From a virus: 49,423 bases of DNA. Positions 1-42,183 of this stretch are shown here, in pieces. The position numbers were made by a program, and so were the translations under genes. Where the stretch lies: the IMG/VR virus record IMGVR_UViG_3300030117_005015, positions 1 to 49,423 of that record; one strand, 5' to 3'. The notes beneath the pieces are model-generated. The model was not told where the DNA came from. It saw nothing but the letters and a program-made list of their open reading frames with translations, and did not search any database. The first letter of the stretch is position 1, and the number at the start of each line of letters is the position of its first letter.

Positions 1-483
1 AGCTCCGAAAGAAGGTAGGTAAACAATATCTCCATTAACAAAACCATTAGTTTGAAATAAAGGCGTAGGATTTGCTAGGTTTCCAGTAATATCTATTTCA
101 TATATCCAATTAGAACCTATACTTGATGTTACACTTCCTATTATTAAAGTTGTATCATTTTTAGCACACATTCCATTGCCGGTATAACTAATACCAAATG
201 GAGTTGCTACACCTGGTATAACCGATATAAAAATAGGATCCACCTGTTCTATAAGACAGTTTTCGTCAAGTATTTCGAATTTTTTAATATGATCACCTCC
301 ATGTCCGTCTGGACATTTTATAAAAAAGAAATTATCATATTTAGCTAATTGTCCAGGTTCAAAATCAGGATGTGAAACAGCTTGTGATAATCCAGTTACT
401 GGATCTGTAAAAGTTATCGCTCCACCAAGAAAGCCTGATGTATCAGATACAACTATTTTACAATCTAAACAATCTATTGCCAT
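1..483 (-). CDS. Hypothetical protein, 3' end beyond the window
   Basis: Open frame of 161 codons starting at ATG 483 and running off the left edge without a stop. It begins MAIDCLDCKIVVSDTSGF and contains several Gly/Thr/Pro-rich stretches with no charged helices, which suggests an all-beta structural or fibre-like protein. A Cys pair lies near the N-terminus and another Cys sits in KCPDGHGGD. It lies 6 nt after the preceding gene (490-810) in the same leftward train of small virion-like proteins, so a tail or fibre-associated role is the simplest inference. I do not recognise a family. Confidence 0.75.
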   Translation of the reverse strand, partial: MAIDCLDCKIVVSDTSGFLGGAITFTDPVTGLSQAVSHPDFEPGQLAKYDNFFFIKCPDGHGGDHIKKFEILDENCLIEQVDPIFISVIPGVATPFGISYTGNGMCAKNDTTLIIGSVTSSIGSNWIYEIDITGNLANPTPLFQTNGFVNGDIVYLPSFGA

Positions 484-2137: not shown

Positions 2138-3538
2138 TTAAGGTGTTGAATCTATTTCTGTAACTGAAGTATTTGCTATTCCTAAATATGTAGACCAATC
2201 GTCTTCTATAACTAAAGTTATAAAAATTCTTTCATTACTTCCTGTTATATCTGTATCTGACTGTATTGATATTACGAACATATCTGTAGAATCCCAATGT
2301 TTAGCAGAGCTAAATGGAACATGCCACAAGTGTTGATCGTCCGCATTATTAACCGTAACGTTTACTGTTTCTACAGAAGAATAACCACCAGAATAAGAAG
2401 TTCCAACAGTATTTGTTTCTACACCAAAGGTAACCGTAGCATCGCCAGTATGTGTATTAAACGCCTCAGCTCTCCATGTGAGTGATACTAATCTACCATC
2501 ACAAACAGCCACTTCTTGATTTTCCTCTCTAGTTAATACTGTTTGTTCATCTTGAGATTTTAATGGTAAATAATATTTAGTTGTACCTATATCTGCTCTA
2601 AAAGATGTATTTACTATTCTATAGTGTTTACCCGTTTGAACTGTGGTATGAACTGAATTTATTCTATCATCTATAGCCGCCGAAGTCATTATACTAGTAT
2701 CATTGTCAACAAATGATTCACCATGAGCTTGAACAGCTGTTAAATTTATGCTATCAAAACCCAACGTTGTTATACCAGTAACGCTTCCACCATCTACTGT
2801 AACAGTGCCATCTAATAATATATTATTTCCACTAGCCGGTTCTAATTTTATTTGACCATTAGCATCTAGTGTTATATCTCCATCGGCTTCTACCTCAAAA
2901 TTAGCAGCAGCGGCAGCATCATCTACTGTTGTGAGTAAAGTATCCCCATCAGCACCAACGGTTATTCTAAACTTATCATCATCATTACCACTTTTATACC
3001 ACTCATAAATACCGGAGTAGTTTTTGTGAAATATATTACCATCAACAGAAAAAGTCAAATGAGCCGCATGTGAATCATCATCTATAGTAGTAATAGTAGT
3101 AGCTCCGTGAGTTGTTGTGCCTATTGTAAACCTATCACCGCTATCTTGATTTGATAAAATTGATAATAAAGAAGTGTCTGTTTCCCCAGCATCATTACTG
3201 AATGTTATATAAGTTAGCGCCGTCATTGTATCGGAACCAGTAGCCGCTAAAAGCCCACCTGCACTTCCGTTTGACATAAAATCAGAAACATCAACTCCAA
3301 TTGTAGCAGCATAAGCTCCACCAGTTGCACCCGAAACACTTGTTAAATCTACAGCTGTGCCAGCGGTTAAAGTAATACCACTTATATCACCAGTTTCCGA
3401 TGACATTACAATTTTTTGATTTGAATCTAAACCTAAATACCCACCACTAACTATTGTTCCAGTACGTATATTTTCTAAATATACATCACCACGAAACCTA
3501 GATACAAGGTCATATATATGTTGACCTATCCACTTCAT
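2138..3538 (-). CDS. Tail fibre-like or phage structural protein
   Basis: 466 aa, starting MKWIGQHIYDLVSRFRGDVY. The N-terminal 35 residues are helical and basic, followed by long stretches rich in Gly, Thr, Asp, Ala and Ser with repeating 'DG(D/N)..L' turns, for example VEADGDITLDANGQIKLEPA around residue 230. That is the usual look of trimeric beta fibre shafts. The C-terminal 170 residues are more globular (HYRIVNTSFRADIGTTKYYL onward) and could be a head domain. The ATG overlaps the stop of the upstream adhesin gene by one base. Neighbours (adhesin upstream, tandem small beta proteins downstream) fit a host-contact cluster. The family is inferred from composition and position. Confidence 0.75.
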   Translation of the reverse strand: MKWIGQHIYDLVSRFRGDVYLENIRTGTIVSGGYLGLDSNQKIVMSSETGDISGITLTAGTAVDLTSVSGATGGAYAATIGVDVSDFMSNGSAGGLLAATGSDTMTALTYITFSNDAGETDTSLLSILSNQDSGDRFTIGTTTHGATTITTIDDDSHAAHLTFSVDGNIFHKNYSGIYEWYKSGNDDDKFRITVGADGDTLLTTVDDAAAAANFEVEADGDITLDANGQIKLEPASGNNILLDGTVTVDGGSVTGITTLGFDSINLTAVQAHGESFVDNDTSIMTSAAIDDRINSVHTTVQTGKHYRIVNTSFRADIGTTKYYLPLKSQDEQTVLTREENQEVAVCDGRLVSLTWRAEAFNTHTGDATVTFGVETNTVGTSYSGGYSSVETVNVTVNNADDQHLWHVPFSSAKHWDSTDMFVISIQSDTDITGSNERIFITLVIEDDWSTYLGIANTSVTEIDSTP

Positions 3539-6480
3539 TACTTAATTAATTTTCTTTCTACAGTTCCGTCTTCATAAAGAAATAATAACACTCTATTTTT
3601 TTCAATTTTAGCTGGTCTACCTAATAAATCAGTAACCGAAACTAATTTAGCAATACGTTTTGGTATAGGACCGACCCAAGTTCCTTCACAATAATCATAT
3701 GTTAATTGACATATATTATCCCATTCGTTTTCACAACAGTAATCATCTACTGAAATCACCCAAGCGTAACAAGGATCATTTAACCAATAGGGATTACCTG
3801 CACCAGTAATGCAACCAGCATCGTAAAGACAAGAAACGCTATCATGAACATTAGCGGAAATATCATAATTATAAGCCGATTGATCCATACAGCCCTCAAT
3901 AATTGCGATACAACTTTCGTTATCTGTGTTTGCAAGTGAATCATAATTAAGCGCAGTGGAGTCCATACATCCATATATAAACGGGATACAACTAAAGTCT
4001 TCAACATTTGCCAAAGCATTATAATTAAGCATAGAAGGATCCGTACAACCATATATATAAGGAATACAACTATTATTGTCAGCATTTGCTAAAGGATTAT
4101 AATTAAACATCGTTGAATCAGTACAACCAAATATATATGGAATACACGAACCATCATCAGTATTAGCACTTGCATCAAAGTTAAACATAGTAGGATCGGT
4201 ACATCCATATATAAACGGCACGCAACTACCATCATCAGTATTAGCGTTTGGATTATAGTTAAATGCTAATGGCTGCATACAACCAAGTATTACAGCTACA
4301 CACCCACCGTTATCTATATTTGCTATAGAATCATAATTAAATGCCGTTGAATCTGTACAACCCCATATAGCTTCGGTTACACATGAACCATCATCTACAC
4401 CTGCTACATATCCTTGGGTATAATATTCTAAAAATGATGAATTAGTACATCCAGGCATATAATAACAAGTGTCAGGTGTATTAGCTGATATATCATAATT
4501 ATAAGCAGTTGAATCTGTACATCCATGTACTACAGGCTCGCAATAGTTACCACAAGATGGTATAGCTGTATATATTTCCCAGAATGGATGACTAAAAGGC
4601 TGTAGAGCGCCTTGGCCATTATTTGCAAAAGGATTTGTTCCTTCTGATAACAATGTATCACCGTAAGCATTTATTAATAAAAAAGAATTCTGCATAGTCT
4701 GAAACTCTACTTCTTGTGGTGGTTGTTGAGCTCCAGGAACTTCAAAATAATAAACTAAAACAGGCTCATCTGTTTCTAAATCTATTGGAAACGATTGTGA
4801 ATAAGAACCAGGCCCCATTGTGTATGTCCAAGTATTAGACCCTTGAGTAATACCTAAATAAGAATTACCCCATCCATCCGCAGCATCATCTTCTATTATT
4901 AAAGTATAATCACATACTGGTACTAAATCCATTATAGTTGCAGTAGGATCATAATTAAACATAGTGTCATCTGTACACCCATATATATGCAAATTAATAC
5001 ATGTACTATCGTCTACGTTCGCTAATGGATTATATTCTTGATAGTTTGGATCAGTACAACCAAGTATTGTGTCTTGTCCAGCGCAAGTAGTTCCATTTTG
5101 AACTGTAGAATATGCTACGTATCCAAAGTTAACGCCCACTGTATTTTGACTACCATCTAACCAAGTTCCCGATGTAAGATACGTTATAGTGTCTCCAGCA
5201 CAATCATATATAACAACTTCCCCTGCTGAACCAGGCGTTCCGTTCCCCATTATTCCATCGCCATACGTATCATTTAATATAAGTTCAAACCCTGATTGCT
5301 GAACACAAAACTCGTAAGTATAAGTCTGCCCTATGTCACCATAATCATACGTTCCTTGTGGAGCATCTCCTACGGCTTGGCCTCCACTCATCATTGTCCA
5401 AGAAGTTTCACCTGGCCAATTATCCAATCTAATCGTCATTGTTACTTGATACTCATTGTCTGGATCACATACAGCACCAGCACAACTCCCATCATCAATG
5501 TTAGCAAATGGATTGTATGATGTTTGAGTTGAATCAGTACAACCCGGTATACAAGGCGACGGAGTATAAGTTATTGTATCTGACAAGGTTCCATCCGCAT
5601 ATTCTAACACTATATAGTGCTCAACACTCCAGTTAGGAGGCATTTGTCCGCTTCCGGCGTTTACAGCAAAGTTGTTATATCCATTAGCCGCTGGCCAATA
5701 ACCCATGTAAGAATAAATATGATTATTTTCATTACCATAATGTATTTCAATTACATCGCAAGTAGACGTTGTAGTATCAGACCACCATTCAAATGTTATT
5801 CCAGTTTGAGTTCCCCAGCATTGATCATAAGCATTAGCGTTTATAAAACCTCCACAAGGGGGATAAGTACAAGATCCATCAGGATAAATAGCGTTAGCAT
5901 CATAGTTTAAAGCTACAGAATCCATACAACCCATAGCTGGATTAAATGGATCACTAATCATTATGTCATCTATAGCTATATCACTAGTATATAAATCACC
6001 AGTTACAGCTGTAAATTGTATTTTAAATGAATCAGTTGATGATATTGGATAATAAGCAAAAAACCATTCATCACCATAATTACCAGATTTAACGTCTAAA
6101 ACAGTATATCCATTATTATCTATTACCCCTATTTCTAAATCACCCATCTCCATACCATACATATGATACCAAAACGATAACACTTTACCAGGTGTTGCTG
6201 AAATGTCAAATGTTGGTGTGTATGTTATAAGTGTTTTGTTAGGATAATTAGGATAAGAAGACTCTACATAGTAATAAGTACCACCACCTGTTGTATGGTC
6301 TCCAGAAGGCCCGGTGTTATAACTATAAGTTGGTCCTTGCCAAACACTCCAATCTCCGTCATCAAATTGATCTTGTTCTAATGGTATATAGTTTTCAAAG
6401 TCATATATCCAAGGAAAAGTACTTACTTGTCCAAAATTAAATAATGGTAGTAATAATAATATTAATAATAGTTTTTTCAT
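3538..6480 (-). CDS. Secreted adhesin-like protein with T9SS-type C-terminal sorting domain
   Basis: 980 aa with four parts. Residues 1-18 are a Sec signal peptide (MKKLLLILLLLPLFNFGQ). Residues about 25-180 resemble a MAM/jelly-roll domain (DFENY at the start, FWYHMYGMEMGDLEIGV, IAIDDIMISD at the end). From about 183 to 885 lie 13 Cys-bounded repeats of the form GC(T/M)D...NY...A...DDGSC, nine of them dense after residue 640. Then comes a CC...WD..C module (DDYCCENEWDNICQLTYDYC), and the last 35 residues (SVTDLLGRPAKIEKN and LLFLYEDGTVERK) match the type A C-terminal sorting domain of the Bacteroidota type IX secretion system. All these modules are typical of flavobacterial secreted proteins. 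The gene starts with an ATGA overlap on the preceding 57-aa gene. Either the host exports it during infection, or the domains have been reused as a virion adhesin. Acquisition from a host is inferred. Confidence 0.85.
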   Translation of the reverse strand: MKKLLLILLLLPLFNFGQVSTFPWIYDFENYIPLEQDQFDDGDWSVWQGPTYSYNTGPSGDHTTGGGTYYYVESSYPNYPNKTLITYTPTFDISATPGKVLSFWYHMYGMEMGDLEIGVIDNNGYTVLDVKSGNYGDEWFFAYYPISSTDSFKIQFTAVTGDLYTSDIAIDDIMISDPFNPAMGCMDSVALNYDANAIYPDGSCTYPPCGGFINANAYDQCWGTQTGITFEWWSDTTTSTCDVIEIHYGNENNHIYSYMGYWPAANGYNNFAVNAGSGQMPPNWSVEHYIVLEYADGTLSDTITYTPSPCIPGCTDSTQTSYNPFANIDDGSCAGAVCDPDNEYQVTMTIRLDNWPGETSWTMMSGGQAVGDAPQGTYDYGDIGQTYTYEFCVQQSGFELILNDTYGDGIMGNGTPGSAGEVVIYDCAGDTITYLTSGTWLDGSQNTVGVNFGYVAYSTVQNGTTCAGQDTILGCTDPNYQEYNPLANVDDSTCINLHIYGCTDDTMFNYDPTATIMDLVPVCDYTLIIEDDAADGWGNSYLGITQGSNTWTYTMGPGSYSQSFPIDLETDEPVLVYYFEVPGAQQPPQEVEFQTMQNSFLLINAYGDTLLSEGTNPFANNGQGALQPFSHPFWEIYTAIPSCGNYCEPVVHGCTDSTAYNYDISANTPDTCYYMPGCTNSSFLEYYTQGYVAGVDDGSCVTEAIWGCTDSTAFNYDSIANIDNGGCVAVILGCMQPLAFNYNPNANTDDGSCVPFIYGCTDPTMFNFDASANTDDGSCIPYIFGCTDSTMFNYNPLANADNNSCIPYIYGCTDPSMLNYNALANVEDFSCIPFIYGCMDSTALNYDSLANTDNESCIAIIEGCMDQSAYNYDISANVHDSVSCLYDAGCITGAGNPYWLNDPCYAWVISVDDYCCENEWDNICQLTYDYCEGTWVGPIPKRIAKLVSVTDLLGRPAKIEKNRVLLFLYEDGTVERKLIK
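3828..4560 (-). repeat. Coding array of GC-D-NY-A-DDGSC repeats
   Basis: Within the adhesin gene, nine consecutive units of about 25-37 codons encode GC(T/M)(D/Q)..x.NY....A..D...C. Clear examples are YGCTDPTMFNFDASANTDDG, FGCTDSTMFNYNPLANADNN and YGCMDSTALNYDSLANTDNE. DNA similarity between units is visible, with recurring 'ccatatataaa' and 'gtacaacc' segments on the + strand, so the array probably expands and contracts by recombination. Four more diverged units lie upstream at about 5930-4930. The paired Cys suggests a disulfide per unit and the Asp-rich turn suggests metal binding; both are inference. Confidence 0.85.
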
Positions 6481-6650
6481 ATTTCAAATCCTAAATTACA
6501 AATCATTAATCTAAATCTTTTTGCAGTACATCCTGCTTCGCAAAATAAACAAGCTTTTATTTCCAATACTGTAAACGTACCTAATCTAAAACTTATTTCG
6601 TATTTTTCTTTTTTATTTCCTGGTTTAAAACCGTTTATCCAATTTATCAT
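6477..6650 (-). CDS. Cys-rich 57-aa protein upstream of the adhesin
   Basis: A short frame of 57 codons starting at ATG 6650, 3 nt after the nuclease gene stop, and ending in TGA at 6479-6477, which overlaps the adhesin ATG (ATGA). It reads MINWINGFKPGNKKEKYEIS at the start and then contains CLFCEAGC and a later Cys near the C-terminus, giving four Cys in about 20 residues. The tight spacing on both sides fills an otherwise empty 174-nt gap, which supports it as a real gene. The Cys cluster could bind a metal or form disulfides; no family is recognised. Translational coupling to the adhesin is likely. Confidence 0.7.
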   Translation of the reverse strand: MINWINGFKPGNKKEKYEISFRLGTFTVLEIKACLFCEAGCTAKRFRLMICNLGFEI

Positions 6651-6653
6651 AGT

Positions 6654-7022
6654 TTATCTTTTACCGCCATCATATTTAACAGCGTGTCCTTCTTTTATTA
6701 ATAATTCATTTACACTTTCTAACGTTAGTTTCTCTTGTCCGTCTACCATATCCACAAATAACTCACCTAAACATCTTCCATATTTTCCAACACCATGAGA
6801 TTGTAATGTTATTTCTTTTGCTCCTTCTAGCAATTGCTTAACTCTATCTTTAGCTGCTAGTCCCCTAGCTTTCTCTTCTAAGTCTCTAGTTCTGGATTCT
6901 GGAGTATTAATCCCCATAAATCTAATCCTTTTTTTAGTAGATATATCAAATCCTAAATCTATATTAGCATCAATAGTATCACCATCAATAACTCTGTCTA
7001 ATTTTATTTTATAAGTATACAT
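6654..7022 (-). CDS. Staphylococcal nuclease-like (SNase/TNase) endonuclease
   Basis: 122 aa with the complete SNase core. VIDGDTIDA (Asp13, Asp15) supplies the calcium site, RIRFMGINTPE supplies Arg34 and Glu42, and GKYGRCLGEL supplies Arg83, equivalent to the Asp21, Arg35, Glu43 and Arg87 set in the staphylococcal enzyme. The C-terminal helix (SVNELLIKEGHAVKYDG) also fits. Family members cleave DNA or RNA with calcium. There is no signal peptide, so it should act in the cytoplasm or travel with the virion. Its place between the thioredoxin-like gene and the adhesin, away from replication genes, leaves the role open: host DNA degradation, nucleotide recycling, or injection-associated cleavage. 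Confidence 0.9.
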   Translation of the reverse strand: MYTYKIKLDRVIDGDTIDANIDLGFDISTKKRIRFMGINTPESRTRDLEEKARGLAAKDRVKQLLEGAKEITLQSHGVGKYGRCLGELFVDMVDGQEKLTLESVNELLIKEGHAVKYDGGKR

Positions 7023-7037
7023 TATTTTTTAGGATAA

Positions 7038-7400
7038 TTAAAAATCACTCATTAATTGATTATCTATTTCTTCTTGTACTTCTTCTTTAGTTGCTACCAT
7101 TTTAAAACTAAGATCTGCTTGGAACCTAGCAACTTCTTCACCATCTTTAAATATTATTATTGTAGGCACAACAGCTATTTTATATTTTTTTGCTTCATTT
7201 GGGTTGGCAGCTATATCAGTATAAGCTTTAGTTCTACAATCGTTAAGATCCATAACCCACGGCACATCATTAACTTTATTCCAACCCGCATTAAATTGAA
7301 CAACTTTTATTTGCCCAAAACATATACTAGTTAATAACATAAAAATAATTATTAACATATATATAATTCGCGAATGCCAAGTAATTTCAGAATTTTCCAT
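7038..7400 (-). CDS. Membrane-anchored thioredoxin-fold protein lacking the CxxC
   Basis: 120 aa. Residues 12-29 form a hydrophobic segment (IIYMLIIIFMLLTSICFG), a signal peptide or anchor. The rest has a thioredoxin plan: KVVQFNAGWN for the strand before the active site, a helix, then KIAVVPTIIIFKDGEEVARF, which includes the conserved cis-Pro (Pro79) and following strands. At the active site the usual W-C-x-x-C reads W-N-K-V-N (residues 40-44), so both redox Cys are Asn. The protein cannot be a dithiol oxidoreductase. A binding or scaffold role is possible, as with T7's use of host thioredoxin as a processivity factor, although this one is extracytoplasmic. Start and stop abut both neighbours. 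Confidence 0.8.
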   Translation of the reverse strand: MENSEITWHSRIIYMLIIIFMLLTSICFGQIKVVQFNAGWNKVNDVPWVMDLNDCRTKAYTDIAANPNEAKKYKIAVVPTIIIFKDGEEVARFQADLSFKMVATKEEVQEEIDNQLMSDF

Positions 7401-7711
7401 TATCTATTATATAATTTATCTTCTATTTTTTCTAAAGTTTCTTTTATTTCAGTAACATCTTCTTGTGTGCTCATAATAGTGTTACGTATCATTTCGTCTT
7501 TCATTTGAAATTCCATTCTACTAACTTCATCTGGTGGTAGTTTTTCTATCCACTCTGGATTCCACTCGTTTTTAGGAAGTTCTTTTGCCTCTGCTATATC
7601 AGCTTGCAAAGCAAACCACATACCAACAACTGTCGCTATTACAAAGCCAGCTCCTATTATTGTTTTTATACTTAATTTAAAAGATGTATCTTCATTTAGT
7701 TCTTTTGCCAT
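7400..7711 (-). CDS. Single-TM coiled-coil membrane protein
   Basis: 103 aa. A short basic/polar head is followed by one clear transmembrane segment at about residues 16-36 (IGAGFVIATVVGMWFALQA). A Pro-rich linker (LPKNEWNPEWIEKLPPDE) and a charged C-terminal coiled coil (ITEIKETLEKIEDKLYNR-like heptads, residues about 66-103) complete it. This is the shape of an inner-membrane spanin, holin-associated or chaperone-type phage protein. It lies between an outer-membrane barrel gene and a membrane-anchored thioredoxin fold, so an envelope function (lysis or superinfection exclusion) is likely. The family is not identifiable by eye. Confidence 0.75.
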   Translation of the reverse strand: MAKELNEDTSFKLSIKTIIGAGFVIATVVGMWFALQADIAEAKELPKNEWNPEWIEKLPPDEVSRMEFQMKDEMIRNTIMSTQEDVTEIKETLEKIEDKLYNR

Positions 7712-7716
7712 TTTTT

Positions 7717-8796
7717 TTAAAAAATTGTATAGTTAACTCCTAGTTTAAAATCGTACCATTCTCTATTCCAGTACTTGTTATATTTTCCTTCTACAAAATA
7801 TCCTAATTGTTTATTTACTTTTACACCATATATTAACCCTCCTGAATAATCATACCATTGACCATCAACGTAGTTGTGATAACTAAATTCACTACCATCA
7901 TCGTAATGATATGGCATTAAGCTTCCCCAAGCATGCAACCAAGTTTTTTTAGAATATTTATAATAATCAAAACCTATAACTAAAGAATGCTGTATTGTTT
8001 TCTTTAATTCGTTTCTTTTCTTTTCTGTGTAATCTGACAATACTTGTGGTATAACAACAGCCTCCCAAACCTCAGCACTTGTAGCAACTAATTCTCCAGC
8101 TGGATTATAATATTCACTGTTATACACATCCACCGTATAACCTTCTTGTAGGGCTAAATAAGTATAATGTATATTACCATTATCAAGCATCCATTCATCA
8201 AGAGCATTATAACCATATGGCTCTGCTAGTCTATGTGTTAATCCAATATTCCAAGATAAGTTACTATTTTTACGATGTCTATATCTCTCTGATGCTTCAA
8301 AATATTTTACGTCAGCAAAACCATCTTCTAAATATTCCAACTTTAAAGCAAAGAAGTTTACACAAAGCTCATCTTCACAACCTTCATCAGAACTAAATCT
8401 AATAAAATGATGTTGATCCATATAATTTACTCCTTCTTGCCTCTTGTAATCTACTTCAAATAAATATTCAACCCCTCTAACTTTACCTACAGTAGCCGCA
8501 TCACTGTAATTAGATTCCGTTCCATCATAAAAAGTCTGAGCTTTATTTTCATATCCAAATCTTGCTATCTTACGTAAACCTATAGTAAAATTATAATCAT
8601 AAGGAGTTGAAATAGTTTGAGTAGACAAGCCGTTATCTACTGAAAACACATCAACATCAGACAATGATGTTCCACCGTTTACAGCGGCATAAAATGTAGA
8701 AAACTTTAACAAGTCTTGAACATCTTCTTTTTTAAATGTTTGTGCTATTACTATATTATGTATAAATAATAGTAATAATATTAGTTTTTTCATCAT
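7717..8796 (-). CDS. Outer-membrane beta-barrel-like protein with signal peptide
   Basis: 359 aa. A Sec signal peptide (MMKKLILLLLFIHNIVIAQ) is followed by many amphipathic strands rich in Tyr/Trp/Phe, for example VEYLFEVDYKR, FFALKLEYLE, SLVIGFDYYKYSKKTWLHAW, GLIYGVKVNKQLGYFVEGKY. The protein ends DFKLGVNYTIF, with a terminal aromatic residue as in the beta-signal recognised by the BAM complex. It is probably inserted in the host outer membrane. In a phage this could block receptors (superinfection exclusion), alter permeability or help lysis; the sequence does not decide. It follows the giant ejection-type gene after a 43-nt gap that holds a repeated motif (8801-8810). Confidence 0.8.
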   Translation of the reverse strand: MMKKLILLLLFIHNIVIAQTFKKEDVQDLLKFSTFYAAVNGGTSLSDVDVFSVDNGLSTQTISTPYDYNFTIGLRKIARFGYENKAQTFYDGTESNYSDAATVGKVRGVEYLFEVDYKRQEGVNYMDQHHFIRFSSDEGCEDELCVNFFALKLEYLEDGFADVKYFEASERYRHRKNSNLSWNIGLTHRLAEPYGYNALDEWMLDNGNIHYTYLALQEGYTVDVYNSEYYNPAGELVATSAEVWEAVVIPQVLSDYTEKKRNELKKTIQHSLVIGFDYYKYSKKTWLHAWGSLMPYHYDDGSEFSYHNYVDGQWYDYSGGLIYGVKVNKQLGYFVEGKYNKYWNREWYDFKLGVNYTIF

Positions 8797-8839: not shown

Positions 8840-11800
8840 TTATCTTCTTACACTAGACCTTGTAGACTTTCTTTTTCTATTGGTTTTTGGTTTAATATGT
8901 TTTTCTAAATAATCTTTAATTATCTTTTTATTTTGATTTTTATCTTGTAATTCTATAATTTTTTTAGCTCTACTAGTTTTGTAATGTAACTTACTTATTT
9001 CCTCCTCTTTCACACCTAATTCTATTAGTAATGCAATTTGTTGATCTTTCTTTAAATCATATATTAATTTTTCAGTTTGCTTTGTAGAATCATCAAAAAT
9101 TTGTTGTTTAAATTCTTCAGCTTCTTTTTTCTCTATTTCTTTTAACTTTTTCTTTTGTTCTTTTTCAATGTCTTTTTGTTTTTGCTTCTCTTGTTTTATT
9201 TCAGTTTTTGTAGCTTCTATATCTGCATCTTTAATACCTAAATCCCAAGTATTCCAACCTAAAAGCAAAGCAGCTCGCTGCCAAAACGCATTACTTGAAT
9301 CCATAGCGTTATCAATATTTAACATTTTATTTGCTAATCTACCAAGTGGTATATTTGTAAAACCTTCTATCACATTACCTACAGCACTCCAAACGGGATT
9401 ATCTAACGTTAAACCTCGTTTTTTAAATACTTCTCTATTATATTTTCTTGATTGTATAGATCTATATATCTTTCCAACTTTAGAGCTTAAAGGTGGAGAG
9501 AAACTTAAAAGTTGTAATATTGTATACGTATGATCTGATTTTGTTAAAAACTCTTCATCAGTATCTTTAGCATCTTGTTTTTGATATTCTATCACTGCGT
9601 TTTTTGTAGCACTAACAGCTCTACCACCAAAACCTATAGTTACTAACCAAGTATCTATCATACTATTTAATGCTCTATCTGTTCTTTTGTCAAACTCTTC
9701 TTCTTCATCAATCATAGCCCACATAGCTGATTGTAAAGCATGGAAAACAACATTCATAATAACTCCATAGTAAACTATTTTAGACACATGAGTTTTAGTA
9801 TCCCCTCTTTTGTTTATAATATCTCTAGCGGCTTTATTCATTATTCTACCAGCTTGCATTGGATAGTTAGCAAATGCTAACACCAATCTACCTAACGGGC
9901 TTTTTTGTTGTTGAGATAACATGTCTGGTCTAGCTGATTGTTGTGACACTTCTGTTGTTTCTTGGAAATCTAAGAATGCTTGTTTTTCAGCTTGCTCTAA
10001 AGTTATACCTTCTTTAACTAAAGCTTTTATTTTATTTCTATAATATGTAGCCCCACCACTAGAAATAGCAAAGCTATCAGCAACTTGTGTTGGTAAAAAA
10101 CCTTTTTGTAATAACCACGCTACAGCAGCTTTTGCTTTGTTTTGACTACCAGCAACAGCGGCAGATAATTCAGCTTCATTAATACCTCTTCTATTACCAG
10201 CTCTTCTTTGTTTTAAATAATCAGAGTTAAAAATTGTTGAAAAATCTTTCCAGTATTGTTTTTGATTAGCAAAAACCGTGGCAGCGTTTAAAGGGTTATT
10301 AAATGACCAATTTATATAGTTAGTCATAGATATAGTTTGTAATAATGCAGATCTCATGTTAAAGAACATAATTGCACCAACAGCATTGTTAACCCAATTC
10401 ATGTACATATTTACAAGTCTATTAGAACCTTGCTTTCTGTTTCTACCAGTCTCCATAGTAAACAACATATCTTCTAAGGCTTCTCTAAAGTTTTTACCAT
10501 AAATAGCTTGTACTTTGTTTAGATTATCTTTAGAAAATATTTCATTTTTATTTTCTATAAATTCATTTAAAAATTTAGACCTAACGTCACCAATAGCTCC
10601 ATCACTTAATAAATCAGAATTTATATTTTCAACTAACCAATATTCACCTGGCTCTGAATAACCTTCTTTTCTTTTAGATATTTTACCAACTTGATCTGCA
10701 AACTGCTTTAATTCTGTGTCAGTTTTTACAAAATCAGATAACATTTTAGTATCTCTTTTTGATAAACCAGGTATTTCAAAACCTGCTTTTTGCCAAAGAT
10801 AAACTCTAACAGCTTGATCAACAGTAAATTCTACACCTTCATAACCATCGAATGATTTAAGTTTTTTTGTTAAATCTTTTTTAACACTTTTATTTTCTTT
10901 TAATAAATTTTTATAATTTTCAGAAGCTATTTGTCTTGAAGCGTTTAATTCGTCAATACCTCTTGCGAAAGGATCTATTAAAGCTTTTTTGAAAAACTTC
11001 ATTTGTTGTTCTCCTTGTTTACCTTTACCTAAAAAGTTATATAATAAACCAACAAAATCTTGAGCAGAAGCTGGTATAATAGATTTATACTTTGACTTGT
11101 TACCTCTTAACTTAGCTTGAGCATCAGAAAAAGTTATAACAGCTTGAACACCAGTTGTTTGCTGTATTATTTTATTAAATTCTTTATTTAAATCTTTTGA
11201 AAAATCAACTTTAGCTTGTTGTACTTTTGATTTAACATCAAATTGATCTAGTACATTTTTTACAGCTTGTACGTTTTGTAGAGCATCGTCTGCAAAATAA
11301 AAGTCATTAAAACCTTCACCGACTTTGTCAGCAACCCAAAGTGCTTTTGCCTCACTCGTACTGTTGGCTAAACCAGTAATGTTTTCTATTGATATATTTA
11401 AACCATTTGCTTGTAAAAAATCATGTATTGCTTGTGCTGATTCAGGTGGTCTAGCTGTTAAAACAAACATATTTTTAGAACCAAACTTTTTTTGTAGCTT
11501 TAATGCTTTTTCAAATAAAGGTGCTTTTTTACCTTCAACAACTTTTGAAAACTCTGAAAAATCAAACTCATAACCTTTAGCAGCTAACTCTTCGTATGTG
11601 GCGGCATACTGTTCTGCATTTAGCTTACCTTTAGTACCGTCAGGTCTTGTAAAATTAATCATAGACTTTGTTGTAGCCAATGTATCGTCAAAATCTAGTA
11701 TTGTAATACCTTTTGGTTTATTTTTATTTGATCTTGAGAACAACACAGCGTCATCAATAATTCTTTCACTAGTAAAATTATCTTTTGAAAATTTAGTTAC

Positions 11801-14800
11801 AACTTTTTCTACATCTTTTTCTTTAAAAAAGTTTACGTTTTGTTTTTCAAAAGTTCTTGAATCTATTTGCGTCTCAACAATAAAAACAACTCGTCTCATG
11901 CCTCCAGCTCTTTTATCAGCTGCCATCCTAATAGTTAAAGGTATAGGCACGCCAAGTTGTTCAAAGTTAGCAACTTGATCACTTATATTTAAAGGATCTG
12001 CATCACCCATTGTATAAGTACCTGATCTACCCGTAGTAATATAAAAAGAAGGTATAGGTTTGTTTATATAATCGTATGATATAAAATCAGTTTTAACCCA
12101 TTCGTATGAAGTAGCTAGTGCATCTAATTTGTTTTTCTTAATATCTTGCCAAGCTTCTTCTGTTATTAAAGTTTGCTCTTGTTTAGGACCAGAGCTTAAA
12201 ACAAAGTTCTTAACACCGTATTTATCTTTTAATAATTCTTTTATTTGCTTTAAAGCAGGTATTGATTGTTTAACTAAAGCATCAATTTTTTCAGGATTTA
12301 AACTAGTTTTATTACCTGCTACAGTGTATTCAGTACCTTTTGATTCAATTATTTTGTCAATGTCTATATATATATTTCTTTTAGGTCCTTTTGACTTATC
12401 GGCTTTTATTTCTGAACCAAAAGGCATACCGTCAACTTCTAACTGTACATCTGGATTTTCACCTTCTGCAACTTCTTCTACCAATAGCTTTATGTTTGGA
12501 TTACTTGCAATAGTATTTTTAAAATTATTTATACCGTGTTGTTCTATGTAATAAGAGTTAGGTTTTGATTTTAAACCTTCTTTGTTTCTTAAAGACCTTA
12601 ATTCTTTTATAGCATTTTTAATTTCTGGTATTTTATATAATCCGCTATAATCGTACGCGTTATCTGTTATTAAATGTTTTAATGCAACTCTCCAAGATAT
12701 ATCTTTAGTGTCTATACTTAGTAATATATCATTTAAACCGTTTTTTTCTGCTCTAATAATAAAATTATTTGCTGTTTTACTACTATATTCTTTATCATTT
12801 TTCTTGCTAAACTTAACGTCAGGGTCTCTACCTATATTAGCACCTAAAGTTTCTATATCATCTTTAGCTAAAGTTTCACCTTTAAGTTCAGCTATTTCTG
12901 TTCTTTTTTGTATTATTTCTGTTTCTTGAGCTACTTCCATTGTAGCATCAAAAGATAATGCACCAGCCATGTTTTTTGCTAACGTATCTTTTCTTGTACC
13001 TCTTTTACCAGATCTTTGTCCTGTAACAGGATTAAAAGCAGGTATATCAAAAAAGCCCATAAATTCTTCTTCAGTAGGCATTTTTTTCTTATATAAATTA
13101 ACAGACTTATCTTTATCGTAAGATCTTATAGCTGCTGGAGGTAATAGTTGTTGGTCTACAGCGTTTTCTACTTCACTTCTTGTAGTAAGTTTTTTTATAA
13201 AAGTTGTAAAAATCCTATCTTTAACATCAACATTACGTTCTATTTGTACTAAATCAGATGTAAATAAAGCGTTTATTATTGGCTCTCTAAACTTTCTTAA
13301 ATTACTAGCATATGTTTTAGTACCTAAAAAGTTTTTAATTGTTTTAAACAAATAACTATTAGCTTGATCTCTTAATTTTATTTGTATATTTTTAGCAGAA
13401 GTATTACTTTCATATGCTCTTAATAAAGATTTACGCGCAGCATCTTTTATTTGATTATATAATTTACCATTAGTTTCTATACCTAGTTGTTTTCTAAACT
13501 GCGATTGTTTTTGACCTTGTTCTTTTATTTGTGCTTTTCTAGCTTGAGCAGCTGGTGATAAATCTTCTGTTTCAAAAGAAGTTTCTACCTCAGTATCTTT
13601 TATGTCAAAAGTTGTTTCACCTTCTTTAGTTCTTTTAGCAGCATCTATTCTAGTTGTTTTACCTTCTTTTTTAGCGGCTATTGCAAGAGCTTTGTCTGCG
13701 TCTAATTTTGCAAAACTAATATCAGACATTATACGCTCACCAATTGTTACACCTTCTTTTACATCTGTTTTTCTAGTAGCTTGTGGATTATAATTAAATA
13801 ATCTTTGAGAAGCTTTTTCTATAACTTGTTCTGTTTTTTCAGGACCCATCCTAAGACCTTTAATATAGTTGTTTATAGGTCCATTTTCATTGTTTATAGA
13901 ATCAAATATTTGACCAAACTCTGTACTACGTCTAAACTCGTTTTGTGTGTATTCTTTACCTTCTTGTTGTAATTTATTTTTTAAGTTATTTTCTATTTCA
14001 TTTACAGCTGTAACAGCTTTTGATCTTGAAAACTTTGTTGTAGCTTCTGTACGTTGAGCACCTGTAACTAAATCACCTTCTGCACCTTTAGCAGCTACAT
14101 TAATTATAGATTTACTTACATAATCTTTTTTAATACTTTTAGCATAATCTTTTATAAAGTTAAATACATCTCTACCGGTATTAAATTTAATCTTTTTTAA
14201 ACCTATTCTTTGTAAAGTTTGTCTTACAAAATCACCTATTTTAGTAAAAAAAGAATCATTAAAAGTTAATGTACCATCAACAATTGATTCAGCCATAATA
14301 GTCATAGTTTCTTCACCAAACTCACTAACACGTTGTCCAGTTTTAGGATCTATATATGCACTCATTCTATCCACAAACTCTTGAGATACACCACCATACT
14401 TTTCATTAACATAGTCTGTTACTGCATTACCAAAAGCATCTTGAGTAACTTGATCGTTTCTAAGAGTTCTTGATAAAATTTTATGAAAAAACTCGTGTGC
14501 AGCTACACCTTCTTTATAATTATCTTTATTTATTATAATATCATAACTACCATCAGGTCTATCTATAATATAACCAAACTGTTTATCAGCTGTTTTAAAA
14601 GCTTCTAATCTATTTTTAGTATCTTCTAAGTTTTGTTTAGCTGTTGTATTTTCAGTTGTACCAGACTCTGTTTCTGCTACACGTGATTTATAACCTTCAA
14701 CTTCGGCTTCAAGCAAAGAAATTATTTCAGCTTGACTTTCAGCTATATCTTCATTACTTAGTTCTACTATATCACCTTCATCACCAGTTTTATCTTGAAC

Positions 14801-17800
14801 AGCATCCATTTGTTTTTTAACTGTAGCTGTTTCTTTATTTATAGCAGTGTTTAAAACGGCTTTAGCAGATTCATCTAGTTCAACAATACTAGCATCAGTT
14901 TCTACAGGTAAAGGTTCTATTTTTTTAGTTGGTATTTTACCTGGTACTACCTCAGCATATTTATTTAATATCTCACTTATTTCATTGTTTATATTTTGTA
15001 ACTCTTGTTCAATACCTGGTACTGCACTTGCACCTGTTTTTTTAGAATCTTGTTCTGCTTTAACTCTTCTTTTTTCAAGTTCTACTAAAGAACTTCTATC
15101 TTCAGCATTAGTAATTCTATCACTTATTTCAGAATCTATTTTTATACTATCAATTTTATCTTGTACATAGTTTCCATAAGCTTCAGCTCTATTTGAAGCT
15201 TCTTGTGCGTATGCGTTAATAGCGTCTTCACTAATTTTTTTAATAGAAACAGGCGCGTCTACGTTAAGATCTGTATCTATGCCAGAATCAAAAGTGGTCT
15301 GTGATTTTATTTCATATTTAAAATTTTCAACATCTTGTAAAGTTTTTAAACCATCAACATAGTCAATAAAAGATTGCTCACTTACAACTGTACCATCAAT
15401 AGTAAGTTCTACTTTTGCAAGTACAGGTGGTAAATAATAGTGCTTGTTATTTTCAGCTTTTATTATACCACCAGTTTGAGGTGTGTACGGCATGTAACCG
15501 TTTTTAGGTATTAAATTACCAGCTGGATCTACAAACTGGTCATTACCTTGATAGCCATTAGGATCTGCATAGACTTTTATACCCGTAACATTACCTTGAC
15601 CATCTAATAAATTACCTTCTTTATCAATATTTGGTTGTGGTCTGGTGTATTTATAACCAGTTTCCATATTACCAGTTTTAACAAACTCTTCTGTAAAACG
15701 AGTTTGATCTCTTAAATCTACTGGTTTAACTTCTTTTAAACCTGTAGTACCACTATCTACATCGCTTTTAATATCGTTTTTGACACTATTATATGCAATT
15801 ATCGTTTCTGTTGCTAAACTAAATACAGCTGGAGAAAAACCTTCAAGAACTATATCAACTTCATCAAATTTTAAATTTGCTGTTTTAAATTTTGTGTATT
15901 CACCAGTCATACCTCCAACAACATCAGTTGTAACGTTATAAGGTATAGTTAAAGTTGTACCAACTATCTTAGAAGTATTAGTTGTTTTACCTACAGTTTT
16001 TATTATAGCAGATGAACCTTTTATACCAAGCATCGATGTTATAAGCTCTGTTGCAGCTACAGAAGCACCACCTAATCTAGCTCTTCTTTTTATTTCTGCT
16101 CTAAACTCATCATTTTCTAACAAACGTCTTATATTATTAGGCGTCATATCATCACCTATAGCTTCTAGCTCTTCTTGAAGTATTTGAGTAAACGTAGCTA
16201 TAGTCTCCATGTTATAGTTCATGGAAGTCATACCAGCAACGAAACCACCACCAAGAGCACCATAACCGGTATACCAAGTAGCACCCGCACCAGCAAGAGC
16301 AGAACCAGACGCATCTTTTAAAGCTTCTTCATTAAACATACCTACTGCACTAGAAACAAAAGCCTGACCAAAACCTTTAACACCTTCGTCTTTAATAGCG
16401 TTCATAGTAGACATAAACCAGTTTTCACCATCATCTCTGTACTCGTTATATGATTCAGACCAAGATATTAAAGCCTTCATGTCAGCAGAAGCAGTTTGTA
16501 CTTCTTCTATAGCTTCTATCATTTTCTGTAAATCTTTGTCAGATATGTCATCTATATTTTCAAGATCGCCAAATATAGGATCTACGGCTCTATACAAATC
16601 AGCTTGAGCTTGCCCAGCGTCAACAGCTGCGTCAAATGCACTTGGCCCATTGTAAGTATCAACAGGGTTTAACATCCACTCCTGTAGTCTTTTCATTTCT
16701 TTTACACCTGCACGACCTTCTAAACCAGTTTCAAACTTTTGCTGCTCACCCCCAACCCAAGCTCCTATTTTTGTATCGTATCTAAACGGTGCAGTTACAA
16801 TAATCCAATCATCAAACGTGTTTTCAATTAAACCTGATTTTACTGTACCAAAAATACCAGTATCTACTTTTAATGGAATAATATAACCAGGTTCAAACTT
16901 AAACCCAAAATAAGGATTACCTTTGTATTTTTTGTTATTAGCCCAACTGTTTAAAAGTCTTATGGCTTCTTTTTCATCCTTTTGATGAAAATGATAACCA
17001 TTATAACGCTCACCTTTTTTAGCCATTGGTGGATCTTTCATAATATACTCTTCAAAAGCATATCTTTCTGGTCCTAAAATAGCAAGCCTTTCTTCTTGTT
17101 CTTCAATTTTTTTAACTCGACCATCAAGTAAATTTACAACTATATTTGAAGCTTGTTGATATTGATTATAAGATAAGTTGTTGTTGTAAAACTCTCTTTC
17201 AAATGAGTTTGCTGGATTTTGCAAAACATTATTAAAATCACTTGGCATATCACCAAGACTTATACTAAATGTATTAGAAGGATTCATGCCAAAATCATTT
17301 TCATCTCTTCCTTTGTAATTATATAAAAGTTCTGGTATATCATTAAACGATATTACAGCCGGTGGTGCTTTTTCTTTTTTCTTTTCAGTGTTGTCAACAG
17401 TAAGTTCTTTATCAAGAAGTAATTCACCAACGTTTCTGTAAAGTTGCTCGCTTTCTTTAAGAGGTTTAAATATACTATTAATTAAACCACTAGCACCATC
17501 AAAAATACCACCTACTGTTTTTTCTATACCATATTGCACTACACTTTTACCAAAAGCTTCATCACCTGGTTTTACATCACCAACAAATAATTTTCTAATT
17601 GCGTCTGTTTTAAAAAGATTTTCATCAACGTTTTCTATACTATTAAAATATTCATCTGAAAAATTAAAATCTTCTTTAAATTTTTCATTTATAATACTAT
17701 AGTTACCTTTATATTCAGGGTTGTTTGCCGTGTACACGTACTCTTCTAAAGTTGCAGGATCAAATTCTTTTAAATCAGGAAATAATCTATTTATTTCATC

Positions 17801-17911
17801 CCACATATATCCACCTTCTGCAGTACGAAAACGAATATTATTGGCTACCAACACATATTGTTGTAGCGCAGAAGCTATAACGTTTAATTTATCTAAGCTT
17901 GGTTCGTTCAT
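8840..17911 (-). CDS. Giant polyvalent ejection (internal virion) protein with zincin and HAD domains
   Basis: 3023 aa, the largest gene here. About residues 535-560 form a Gly-rich hydrophobic stretch (GALGGGFVAG). A zincin motif HEFFH lies at 1139-1143. A HAD-type phosphatase domain runs from about 2068 to 2200: DFDDTLATT at 2073-2081, FVLTARPPES and DFYFADDALQNV. Two hydrophobic helical regions lie at about 2504-2533 (AVGAIMFFNMRSALLQTIS) and 2709-2732 (IVYYGVIMNVVFHALQSAM), and the C-terminus (2897-3020) is a basic coiled coil. Size, membrane-active stretches and position after two smaller internal-virion candidates match T7 gp16-like or crAss-type injected proteins, and the mixed enzymatic content fits 'polyvalent' phage proteins delivered with the DNA. 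The frame is intact. Individual functions are unproven. Confidence 0.8.
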   Translation of the reverse strand: MNEPSLDKLNVIASALQQYVLVANNIRFRTAEGGYMWDEINRLFPDLKEFDPATLEEYVYTANNPEYKGNYSIINEKFKEDFNFSDEYFNSIENVDENLFKTDAIRKLFVGDVKPGDEAFGKSVVQYGIEKTVGGIFDGASGLINSIFKPLKESEQLYRNVGELLLDKELTVDNTEKKKEKAPPAVISFNDIPELLYNYKGRDENDFGMNPSNTFSISLGDMPSDFNNVLQNPANSFEREFYNNNLSYNQYQQASNIVVNLLDGRVKKIEEQEERLAILGPERYAFEEYIMKDPPMAKKGERYNGYHFHQKDEKEAIRLLNSWANNKKYKGNPYFGFKFEPGYIIPLKVDTGIFGTVKSGLIENTFDDWIIVTAPFRYDTKIGAWVGGEQQKFETGLEGRAGVKEMKRLQEWMLNPVDTYNGPSAFDAAVDAGQAQADLYRAVDPIFGDLENIDDISDKDLQKMIEAIEEVQTASADMKALISWSESYNEYRDDGENWFMSTMNAIKDEGVKGFGQAFVSSAVGMFNEEALKDASGSALAGAGATWYTGYGALGGGFVAGMTSMNYNMETIATFTQILQEELEAIGDDMTPNNIRRLLENDEFRAEIKRRARLGGASVAATELITSMLGIKGSSAIIKTVGKTTNTSKIVGTTLTIPYNVTTDVVGGMTGEYTKFKTANLKFDEVDIVLEGFSPAVFSLATETIIAYNSVKNDIKSDVDSGTTGLKEVKPVDLRDQTRFTEEFVKTGNMETGYKYTRPQPNIDKEGNLLDGQGNVTGIKVYADPNGYQGNDQFVDPAGNLIPKNGYMPYTPQTGGIIKAENNKHYYLPPVLAKVELTIDGTVVSEQSFIDYVDGLKTLQDVENFKYEIKSQTTFDSGIDTDLNVDAPVSIKKISEDAINAYAQEASNRAEAYGNYVQDKIDSIKIDSEISDRITNAEDRSSLVELEKRRVKAEQDSKKTGASAVPGIEQELQNINNEISEILNKYAEVVPGKIPTKKIEPLPVETDASIVELDESAKAVLNTAINKETATVKKQMDAVQDKTGDEGDIVELSNEDIAESQAEIISLLEAEVEGYKSRVAETESGTTENTTAKQNLEDTKNRLEAFKTADKQFGYIIDRPDGSYDIIINKDNYKEGVAAHEFFHKILSRTLRNDQVTQDAFGNAVTDYVNEKYGGVSQEFVDRMSAYIDPKTGQRVSEFGEETMTIMAESIVDGTLTFNDSFFTKIGDFVRQTLQRIGLKKIKFNTGRDVFNFIKDYAKSIKKDYVSKSIINVAAKGAEGDLVTGAQRTEATTKFSRSKAVTAVNEIENNLKNKLQQEGKEYTQNEFRRSTEFGQIFDSINNENGPINNYIKGLRMGPEKTEQVIEKASQRLFNYNPQATRKTDVKEGVTIGERIMSDISFAKLDADKALAIAAKKEGKTTRIDAAKRTKEGETTFDIKDTEVETSFETEDLSPAAQARKAQIKEQGQKQSQFRKQLGIETNGKLYNQIKDAARKSLLRAYESNTSAKNIQIKLRDQANSYLFKTIKNFLGTKTYASNLRKFREPIINALFTSDLVQIERNVDVKDRIFTTFIKKLTTRSEVENAVDQQLLPPAAIRSYDKDKSVNLYKKKMPTEEEFMGFFDIPAFNPVTGQRSGKRGTRKDTLAKNMAGALSFDATMEVAQETEIIQKRTEIAELKGETLAKDDIETLGANIGRDPDVKFSKKNDKEYSSKTANNFIIRAEKNGLNDILLSIDTKDISWRVALKHLITDNAYDYSGLYKIPEIKNAIKELRSLRNKEGLKSKPNSYYIEQHGINNFKNTIASNPNIKLLVEEVAEGENPDVQLEVDGMPFGSEIKADKSKGPKRNIYIDIDKIIESKGTEYTVAGNKTSLNPEKIDALVKQSIPALKQIKELLKDKYGVKNFVLSSGPKQEQTLITEEAWQDIKKNKLDALATSYEWVKTDFISYDYINKPIPSFYITTGRSGTYTMGDADPLNISDQVANFEQLGVPIPLTIRMAADKRAGGMRRVVFIVETQIDSRTFEKQNVNFFKEKDVEKVVTKFSKDNFTSERIIDDAVLFSRSNKNKPKGITILDFDDTLATTKSMINFTRPDGTKGKLNAEQYAATYEELAAKGYEFDFSEFSKVVEGKKAPLFEKALKLQKKFGSKNMFVLTARPPESAQAIHDFLQANGLNISIENITGLANSTSEAKALWVADKVGEGFNDFYFADDALQNVQAVKNVLDQFDVKSKVQQAKVDFSKDLNKEFNKIIQQTTGVQAVITFSDAQAKLRGNKSKYKSIIPASAQDFVGLLYNFLGKGKQGEQQMKFFKKALIDPFARGIDELNASRQIASENYKNLLKENKSVKKDLTKKLKSFDGYEGVEFTVDQAVRVYLWQKAGFEIPGLSKRDTKMLSDFVKTDTELKQFADQVGKISKRKEGYSEPGEYWLVENINSDLLSDGAIGDVRSKFLNEFIENKNEIFSKDNLNKVQAIYGKNFREALEDMLFTMETGRNRKQGSNRLVNMYMNWVNNAVGAIMFFNMRSALLQTISMTNYINWSFNNPLNAATVFANQKQYWKDFSTIFNSDYLKQRRAGNRRGINEAELSAAVAGSQNKAKAAVAWLLQKGFLPTQVADSFAISSGGATYYRNKIKALVKEGITLEQAEKQAFLDFQETTEVSQQSARPDMLSQQQKSPLGRLVLAFANYPMQAGRIMNKAARDIINKRGDTKTHVSKIVYYGVIMNVVFHALQSAMWAMIDEEEEFDKRTDRALNSMIDTWLVTIGFGGRAVSATKNAVIEYQKQDAKDTDEEFLTKSDHTYTILQLLSFSPPLSSKVGKIYRSIQSRKYNREVFKKRGLTLDNPVWSAVGNVIEGFTNIPLGRLANKMLNIDNAMDSSNAFWQRAALLLGWNTWDLGIKDADIEATKTEIKQEKQKQKDIEKEQKKKLKEIEKKEAEEFKQQIFDDSTKQTEKLIYDLKKDQQIALLIELGVKEEEISKLHYKTSRAKKIIELQDKNQNKKIIKDYLEKHIKPKTNRKRKSTRSSVRR

Positions 17912-41430: not shown

Positions 41431-42183
41431 TTATAACGGTATATCTGTTGTGCCTTGTGTTGGACTATTTGTTGGAACACCTACAAGTGAAGAGCCTGTT
41501 GAATCTACAAAATTACCACTTGTTTCATCTAATAGAAGCCAAGCTCGTAAATTCATTCTTGATTTAATATTACCTTCTAACATAGCTAGTGGTTTACCAT
41601 TGTTATAAAGCTCTGTTGCTTGTACATCTGTTAAAACATTTGCAAATAAAGCTAAGTTACTAAAATGACCTTGGAAAAAAGCATTATCAGCGTTACCAGG
41701 TTTACCTATGTAAATTTTATTAGCAGTAGTTGCAAAAGACGCTATTGAAGATGTACTAGCAGCTACTTTAGTACCATTTAAATATATACCTATAGTATTA
41801 TTTTCTCTATCCCAAGAACAAACAAAATGCGTCCAGCCATTACTAACAGAGTCACTAGCTGAGTATTCATAATCTAAAATTGTATTTTGACTACCACCTC
41901 TACAGTTTACACGTATAAGCTCACTACCACCTTGATTAATGAATAAAATTGCTATTTTATTATTATTACTTGTATCGGTATGCAAGTTAAAAATAGTATC
42001 ATTTTGATTTGCTGTTTCTAGCTTAAGCCATACAGACATACTACCTACATTTTTTATATCATTAGCTAAAGAGCTTGTTATAATAATATGATCATTAGTA
42101 CCATCTAGCGAAACTGATGTTCTAAAAGCGGCGTGATTTGGTCTTACTCTATATGAAGATGCTATGTTTGATAAACCTAGCAT
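41431..42183 (-). CDS. LamG/concanavalin-like lectin-fold protein
   Basis: 250 aa. Residues about 20-170 follow the LamG (laminin G-like jelly-roll) pattern: SVSLDGTNDHIIITS at the start, MSVWLKLET, NGWTHFVCSWDRENNTIGIY then LNGTKVA, and KIYIGKPGN near the end. LamG domains bind glycans or proteins. The C-terminal tail (residues 195-250) has an Asn/Thr/Ser-rich strand region, probably an attachment to the virion. No signal peptide is seen, so it acts as a virion protein or in the cytoplasm. It overlaps the next upstream gene's stop by one base. Its location far from the tail block suggests a capsid-surface or fibre decoration. Confidence 0.8.
   Translation of the reverse strand: MLGLSNIASSYRVRPNHAAFRTSVSLDGTNDHIIITSSLANDIKNVGSMSVWLKLETANQNDTIFNLHTDTSNNNKIAILFINQGGSELIRVNCRGGSQNTILDYEYSASDSVSNGWTHFVCSWDRENNTIGIYLNGTKVAASTSSIASFATTANKIYIGKPGNADNAFFQGHFSNLALFANVLTDVQATELYNNGKPLAMLEGNIKSRMNLRAWLLLDETSGNFVDSTGSSLVGVPTNSPTQGTTDIPL

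Follow-up and report, generated by a model that had tools for sequence, protein, structure and literature searches.

Whether the genes that follow the gene for a 3023-aa protein in this virus record form one envelope-directed system, and at which step of infection such a system would act, is the question raised by this locus. The window, by which we mean the whole 49,423-base virus record analysed, is a podovirus-type contig whose terminase is 63.5% identical to that of ctfjg026 and 45% to that of Elemovirus, with further matches to Cellulophaga, Tenacibaculum and Maribacter phages; both its portal and its terminase match PHROG families, and the window has no Rfam match and no tRNA. Its late genes lie on the minus strand, where, in the ORF list, the genes of the block follow the 3023-aa gene, with gaps of 43 nt between the 3023-aa gene and the barrel gene and 5 nt between the barrel gene and that of the transmembrane (TM) protein, and a 1-nt overlap between the TM gene and the gene for the thioredoxin fold. 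In the stretches compared, the late genes of the Elemovirus and ctfjg026 records stop at the large protein. The sequence-only reading had placed five consecutive genes at 6654-8796 and named six; the block is real and lies on the minus strand, but this interval holds four genes, the 57-aa protein and the adhesin falling outside it. We find that the block is three things: a conserved triad (an outer-membrane beta-barrel, a coiled coil with one TM segment and a thioredoxin fold), optional cargo, and a secreted adhesin specific to the clade.

8840..17911, minus strand: 3023-aa protein, 5′ of the triad, probably a virion or ejection protein
7717..8796, minus strand: outer-membrane beta-barrel, core gene 1 of the triad; 359 aa, signal-peptide-like start, C-terminal F
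7400..7711, minus strand: protein with one N-terminal TM segment and a periplasmic coiled coil, core gene 2; 103 aa, i-spanin-like layout
7038..7400, minus strand: exported thioredoxin fold without CxxC, core gene 3; 120 aa
6654..7022, minus strand: SNase-like endonuclease, optional cargo; 122 aa, PF00565 and phrog_452
6477..6650, minus strand: 57-aa protein with four Cys and no export signal seen, optional cargo
3538..6480, minus strand: secreted Cys-rich adhesin, clade-specific; 980 aa, signal-peptide-like start, MAM domain, GCxD repeats

Elsewhere in the window, the 2120-aa protein (22770-29132) carries a crAss muzzle C-terminal domain above the cut-off, a link between the podovirus group of the window and crAss-like phages, and a 254-aa protein gives a weak match to T7 gp14, under the cut-off. 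A phage Cpn60 chaperonin and a Laminin_G_3 protein are encoded at 45683-47251 and 41431-42183, respectively, and 490-2102 holds four small adjoining genes (106-146 aa, several alike) that recur 3′ of the adhesin in relatives.

Predicted proteins of the triad

The barrel has 432 relatives in viral contigs, and the window barrel matches no Pfam, NCBIfam or PHROG family. An AlphaFold2 model made with 108 aligned barrels (A7, mean pLDDT 77.7), which supersedes an earlier model (A1, pLDDT 70.1), has 12 long strands, and the PDB matches listed for the barrel are transmembrane beta-barrels, nearly all of the bacterial outer membrane. The top VIA match of the model is Tsx (Z 14.9, rmsd 4.1, 199 aligned), with KdgM (Z 14.0, rmsd 3.8, 170 aligned) and NanC (Z 13.7, rmsd 4.3, 192 aligned) also matched, and NanC is the top Foldseek match (E 3.5e-6). 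All three are 12-stranded outer-membrane barrels, as is the predicted fold of the triad barrel, yet identity to them is only 8-12% with no family match, and a shared function is not implied. A nameless viral entry of BFVD, A0A516LKJ4, matches a model of the window barrel with E 3.5e-19 at 21% identity. A Tsx-like nucleoside channel was rejected, the likeness being one of 12-strand shape only, as was a phospholipase: although VIA also lists OMPLA as a match, distant barrels do not retain the His and Ser near 129-136, as seen in L178, L179, L181, L183 and L184, and we therefore claim no catalytic site for the barrel.

If both ends are periplasmic, the model would place residues 77-107 on the periplasmic side, where residues 80-105 have a pLDDT below 50, and residues 192-266 outside. 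Conservation among close barrels is fairly even, at 0.95 in 77-107, 0.84 in 192-266 and 0.85-0.95 in the strands. Signal-peptide-like starts are present in 77/77 and 142/145 barrels, and a lipobox-like pattern in 40/77 close barrels and 0/145 distant ones; the signal sequence of the window barrel ends in IAQ, without a lipobox Cys. The signal-peptide-like stretches of the barrel, the thioredoxin fold and the adhesin end in AQ, GQ and GQ, respectively, and signal sequences with such ends are common in Flavobacteria. An outer-membrane barrel with a signal peptide, as had been read from the sequence, is thus borne out by its start, by the 12-stranded model and by the membrane beta-barrels that it matches in the PDB. 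The signal-peptide-like starts also argue against assembly into virions in the cytoplasm. That the triad proteins are virion or injection parts which reach the particle by an unusual route would be consistent with the position of their genes in the late series, behind that of a large virion-type protein, but in the 164-kb phages the triad lies outside the structural genes in the stretch examined, and we regard such a role as very improbable.

The TM protein has at least 566 relatives. One N-terminal TM segment is found in 145/145 of the relatives analysed, oriented N-in by charge in 113/145, and the 103-aa protein of the window has a C-terminal coiled coil at 73-100, so that the earlier description of a one-TM coiled coil was correct. 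The 120-aa protein matches TIGR01068 (E 8.7e-6) and its profile matches PDB thioredoxins (best E 1.4e-9), the protein alone lying just under the Pfam thioredoxin cut-off (23.0 bits vs 23.5). The thioredoxin fold that had been proposed therefore stands, but its membrane anchor is doubtful: FGQ, SQ or AQ closes the hydrophobic stretch of most members just before the conserved part, and export with cleavage is for that reason more likely than anchoring. CxxC is present in 0/151 relatives and in none of the rows of an 11-row alignment with the window protein.

Inheritance of the triad, its cargo and the adhesin

The triad, a phage module so far uncharacterised, is real and widespread and is the unit of inheritance. 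In the barrel scan, for which the best 80 of 432 relatives were kept, 76 loci have the TM gene, 73 the thioredoxin fold, 54 the adhesin and 15 the SNase, and the 48 barrel loci with at least 3 kb downstream all have the TM protein, the thioredoxin fold and the adhesin, with the SNase in 10/48. As these first 80 loci were picked by the barrel, the terminase, the TM protein and distant barrels were used as anchors too. Anchoring on the TM protein recovers the barrel in 76/80 loci and the thioredoxin fold in 78/80, in a set that includes unlike 164-kb phages, and the scan with distant barrels adds 75 new loci, 67 with the TM protein and 69 with the thioredoxin fold. For the wider set, all three genes are present in 139/155 loci, contiguous in 112/139, in the order barrel-TM-thioredoxin or TM-thioredoxin-barrel; when loci sharing an exact 200-mer are merged into 121 groups, the triad is present in 107 of them. 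From the terminase anchor, for which 17/80 terminase loci were picked by length, 9/17 contigs reach the large-gene end and 6/9 have the barrel, one as a fragment only (E 8.8e-4); L230 and L232 end inside fibre genes. Overall, the trio is found together in hundreds of contigs, more than by chance. In L229, the stretch right after the large gene (2422-3547) encodes, in place of the triad, proteins of 79 aa (coiled coil/TM), 83 aa and 72 aa (TM coiled coil) and has a DUF5675 gene.

Across 34 contigs, TerL has a median amino-acid identity of 0.887, the barrel one of 0.855, the TM protein one of 0.774 and the thioredoxin fold one of 0.648, and pN/pS in the same order is 0.129, 0.159, 0.228 and 0.420. 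The partial Mantel values given TerL are 0.38 for barrel and TM protein, 0.41 for barrel and thioredoxin fold and 0.34 for TM protein and thioredoxin fold, against -0.10 for the barrel and the C-terminus of the 3023-aa protein; the end of that protein co-varies with none of the triad proteins, although as a control it is far more diverged (0.46 identity) and consequently of lower power. Co-variation within the triad could come partly from shared recombination.

A tblastn search of 50,697 phage records with the window barrel, distant barrels, the TM protein and the thioredoxin fold gave no credible homologue among phage isolates, weak matches to coiled coils and ordinary thioredoxins being discarded. 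An origin of the barrel as a host gene was rejected, as a profile scan of genome contigs, which reaches only relatives keeping one of two short motifs, returned 4 loci that all resemble phage contigs assigned to MAGs: genes of phage type are found in L183 and L185/L186, and the same set of genes recurs in L184, a fragment of 3.8 kb. The phage contigs L184, L185 and L186 are in MAGs named Nitrosopelagicus and Maricaulis. A literature search, with most subscription papers outside its reach, found no publication on the triad, and PMC12628812, as far as its available text goes, concerns an engineered fusion without bearing on the triad.

The block as a whole is not one system, a possibility that we rejected on the frequency of its other parts: the SNase at 15/80, the 57-aa protein with a tblastn match in 3/81 loci, the window's own included, and a tail of the adhesin type in 0/155 loci of the wider set. 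Nuclease, 57-aa protein and adhesin are each an addition separate from the triad, and the co-occurrence of the block in relatives holds for the triad but not for the nuclease and the 57-aa protein. The nuclease was rightly named as such, being SNase-like by phrog_452 and by PF00565 (45.6 bits vs a cut-off of 21). No TM segment is present in it or in the 57-aa protein and both are optional in relatives, which places them outside the envelope-directed set and leaves the three triad genes within it. Small proteins resembling the 57-aa protein are carried by L230 and L231, and L048 (1-9783 of a 17-kb contig) has the barrel and the SNase beside other fibre-type genes with GCTD repeats.

The adhesin matches PF00629 (MAM, 72.6 bits) and ends in an 'LLGR' tail where orthologues carry a T9SS sorting domain. 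The cut-off of TIGR04183 / PF18962 (T9SS type A) is exceeded by 5/6 orthologues scanned (50.7, 40.9, 36.0, 34.9 and 30.6 bits vs 23); these two models match neither the window adhesin nor L004, which have another tail, and none of the models applied recognizes the 'LLGR' tail of the window adhesin. By pattern, 8/40 complete adhesins have the T9SS type A tail and 32/40 the 'LLGR' tail, and the swapping of the two at one place suggests that they have the same role. The available portions of two papers report phage-encoded T9SS cargo in Cryophage (PMC7468147) and, on one crAss-like BACON protein, a sorting domain of the T9SS (PMC6949934). The sorting domain is common to these cases and the adhesin orthologues; unlike them, the adhesin here is a MAM/Cys-repeat protein kept in 48/48 close loci and not a variable gene.

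This constant presence in close loci with at least 3 kb downstream, the T9SS domains of the orthologues, the position of the adhesin adjoining the barrel in L183 and L184 and its weak co-variation with the barrel in 27 contigs (0.13, p 0.04; with the thioredoxin fold 0.21, p 0.001) would all suit a barrel that, with its partners, serves T9SS export or display of the phage adhesin as a SprF/PorV-like helper. Triads free of an adhesin, such as that of L233, largely refute this, and the T9SS-type tail is found by pattern in 0/155 wider-set loci. Moreover, 0/68 barrels match the Pfam T9SS barrel families (PorV, PorP/SprF) at E up to 1; the absence of T9SS barrels among the listed folds excludes nothing, and the two may be related at the level of fold. 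We consider a helper role highly unlikely.

Lysis genes beside the triad

Endolysin types were defined as sequence clusters, one member of each matching Peptidase_M15_3 or Amidase_2, with the DUF5675 type called by a custom motif. Of the 139 triad loci, 113 contain an endolysin-type gene, whose median distance to the TM gene is 837 nt, and the number rises to 125 when holin-like genes are counted as well; for the 107 triad groups the counts are 81 and 93. The holin-like label is weak, since only the 137-aa one of three clusters has a Pfam holin match. When 38 long contigs were searched with PF08291, PF01510 and PF18925, 33 had an endolysin-family match and 5 had no match to those three families. 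The endolysin lies within 5 kb of the triad on the same strand in 24/33, with 4.8 expected at random, a test that ignores kinship and, because the long contigs are mutually related, overstates their independence; in 9/33 it is far from the triad, although that of G060 may only wrap round the circular end.

Unrelated endolysin families alternate beside the triad. On the barrel tree, endolysin type switches at least 8 times, where shuffled labels give 19 switches on average, and thus follows lineages with repeated switches. Three loci of 164-kb phages (L280, L281, L285) have the order holin-like gene, barrel, TM protein, thioredoxin fold, 293-aa amidase, 137-aa holin-like protein and TM370; L306, a cluster-mate of the amidase, scores over the cut-offs of PG_binding_1 and Amidase_2, and L289, a cluster-mate of the 137-aa protein, over that of Phage_holin_4_1. 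In the adhesin-free L233, the triad is followed by a lipoprotein-like gene, a coiled-coil protein, an M15 endolysin and a holin-like gene. Within the clade of the window, the triad and the endolysin are set apart by genes for small basic proteins, the adhesin and fibres, in some cases together with a PAP2-like protein (E 5.4e-5, under the cut-off). An M15-type gene is found in 15/80 close loci, whose downstream sequence does not exceed about 8 kb, and in the close relative L234 the endolysin comes some 10.7 kb past the thioredoxin gene; as this M15-type gene follows the orthologue of window 1-483, the window probably ends before its endolysin. A distant endolysin in the window's own clade weakens the case for a role at lysis somewhat.

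Phage outer-membrane exclusion proteins exist, and superinfection exclusion or receptor shielding, in which the barrel and its periplasmic partners would alter the infected cell's surface and keep related phages from adsorbing or injecting and progeny from sticking to debris, is the main rival to a role at lysis. All three triad proteins are exported or membrane proteins and often the triad is preceded by a gene for a large protein with a probable role in ejection, both of which favour exclusion. However, conservation of the barrel is near that of TerL, with its predicted outside loops about as conserved as its strands, the triad is spread over unlike phages and linked to unrelated endolysins, the end of the 3023-aa protein shows no co-variation with it, and PADLOC gives no match for the three triad proteins of the window. 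We judge exclusion to be unlikely, and what survives of the earlier proposal of a superinfection-exclusion or envelope-remodelling system is an envelope-directed triad, for which exclusion is not the best fit given the barrel conservation and the endolysin linkage.

Control of lysis follows as the next rival. Here the TM coiled coil would be a holin or antiholin, the thioredoxin fold a periplasmic regulator and the barrel a sensor of the outside, a division of labour that draws on the same linkage to lysis genes and on weak holin-family matches (phrog_1296, E 0.041 and 0.05). Many triads, however, adjoin separate holin-like genes, and a barrel nearly as conserved as TerL suggests more than tuning, which makes mere control quite improbable.

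A model for the triad and its comparison with known systems

On sequence evidence, the architecture of the triad, its linkage, its spread over unlike phages and its linkage to endolysins are established. We propose that the triad may be one envelope module used during lysis, the outer-membrane step being its most likely point of action, and may work in a spanin-like manner, a reading that we hold to be evenly balanced between true and false. The triad proteins would be made late, with the barrel exported and then inserted into the outer membrane and the TM protein anchored in the inner membrane and reaching with its coiled coil into the periplasm, where the thioredoxin fold, without redox cysteines, would act as a binding piece between the two. 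Removal of the peptidoglycan by the endolysin would free this link between the membranes, and the outer membrane would be opened or fused. The bolder form of the proposal, that barrel, coiled coil and redox-dead thioredoxin adaptor make up a new outer-membrane-breaking lysis machine of hundreds of uncultured marine phages with Bacteroidota-type hosts, working with unrelated endolysins, is advanced only tentatively. If true, a named candidate from hundreds of marine phage contigs, open to direct test, would fill the missing outer-membrane step, three so far unannotated families of envelope proteins would be accounted for, and an outer-membrane barrel would be something that a phage can use at lysis.

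Opening of the outer membrane by tailed phages is known mainly from phages of Proteobacteria. One survey found no spanin in 91/677 phages, according to the available part of PMC6139136, and for a flavophage collection the available part of PMC8776804 names only two possible unimolecular spanins. The layout of an i-spanin, as given in that part of PMC6139136, is one N-terminal TM segment, N-in/C-out topology and a periplasmic coiled coil, and the TM protein has this layout. The triad also has the holin and endolysin neighbourhood of two-component spanins, although not adjacent in the clade of the window. The partner of an o-spanin type, a small outer-membrane lipoprotein, is replaced in the window by a 359-aa barrel, and for this reason we do not file the triad as a two-component spanin. 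The best match to a spanin family, that of one TM relative to phrog_739 (Rz-like spanin), is weak (E 0.13). At L269:6247-7017 and L311:4574-5273, in phages that also carry the triad, a TM coiled coil adjoins a lipoprotein of about 140 aa and the two have the look of an ordinary two-component spanin pair; in L269 the second copy of the TM coiled coil matches phrog_20984 (E 1.8e-13). Such a second spanin-like pair beside the triad in some phages counts against the triad acting at lysis.

Among known systems, lom, cor, llp and the Lc porin are phage outer-membrane proteins of exclusion type and, like the triad barrel, are phage-encoded and directed to the host outer membrane; what sets the triad apart is that its three genes are conserved as a module, occur across unlike phages and are linked to lysis genes. 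To our knowledge, spanins do not use a barrel. The comparison with two-component spanins such as lambda Rz/Rz1, to which no sequence similarity was found beyond the weak phrog_739 match, is nonetheless one of shared organization: an inner-membrane protein with one N-terminal TM segment and a periplasmic coiled coil, an adjoining gene for an outer-membrane partner, and linkage to endolysin and holin-like genes, with a 12-stranded barrel in place of the small lipoprotein and a third, periplasmic protein in addition.
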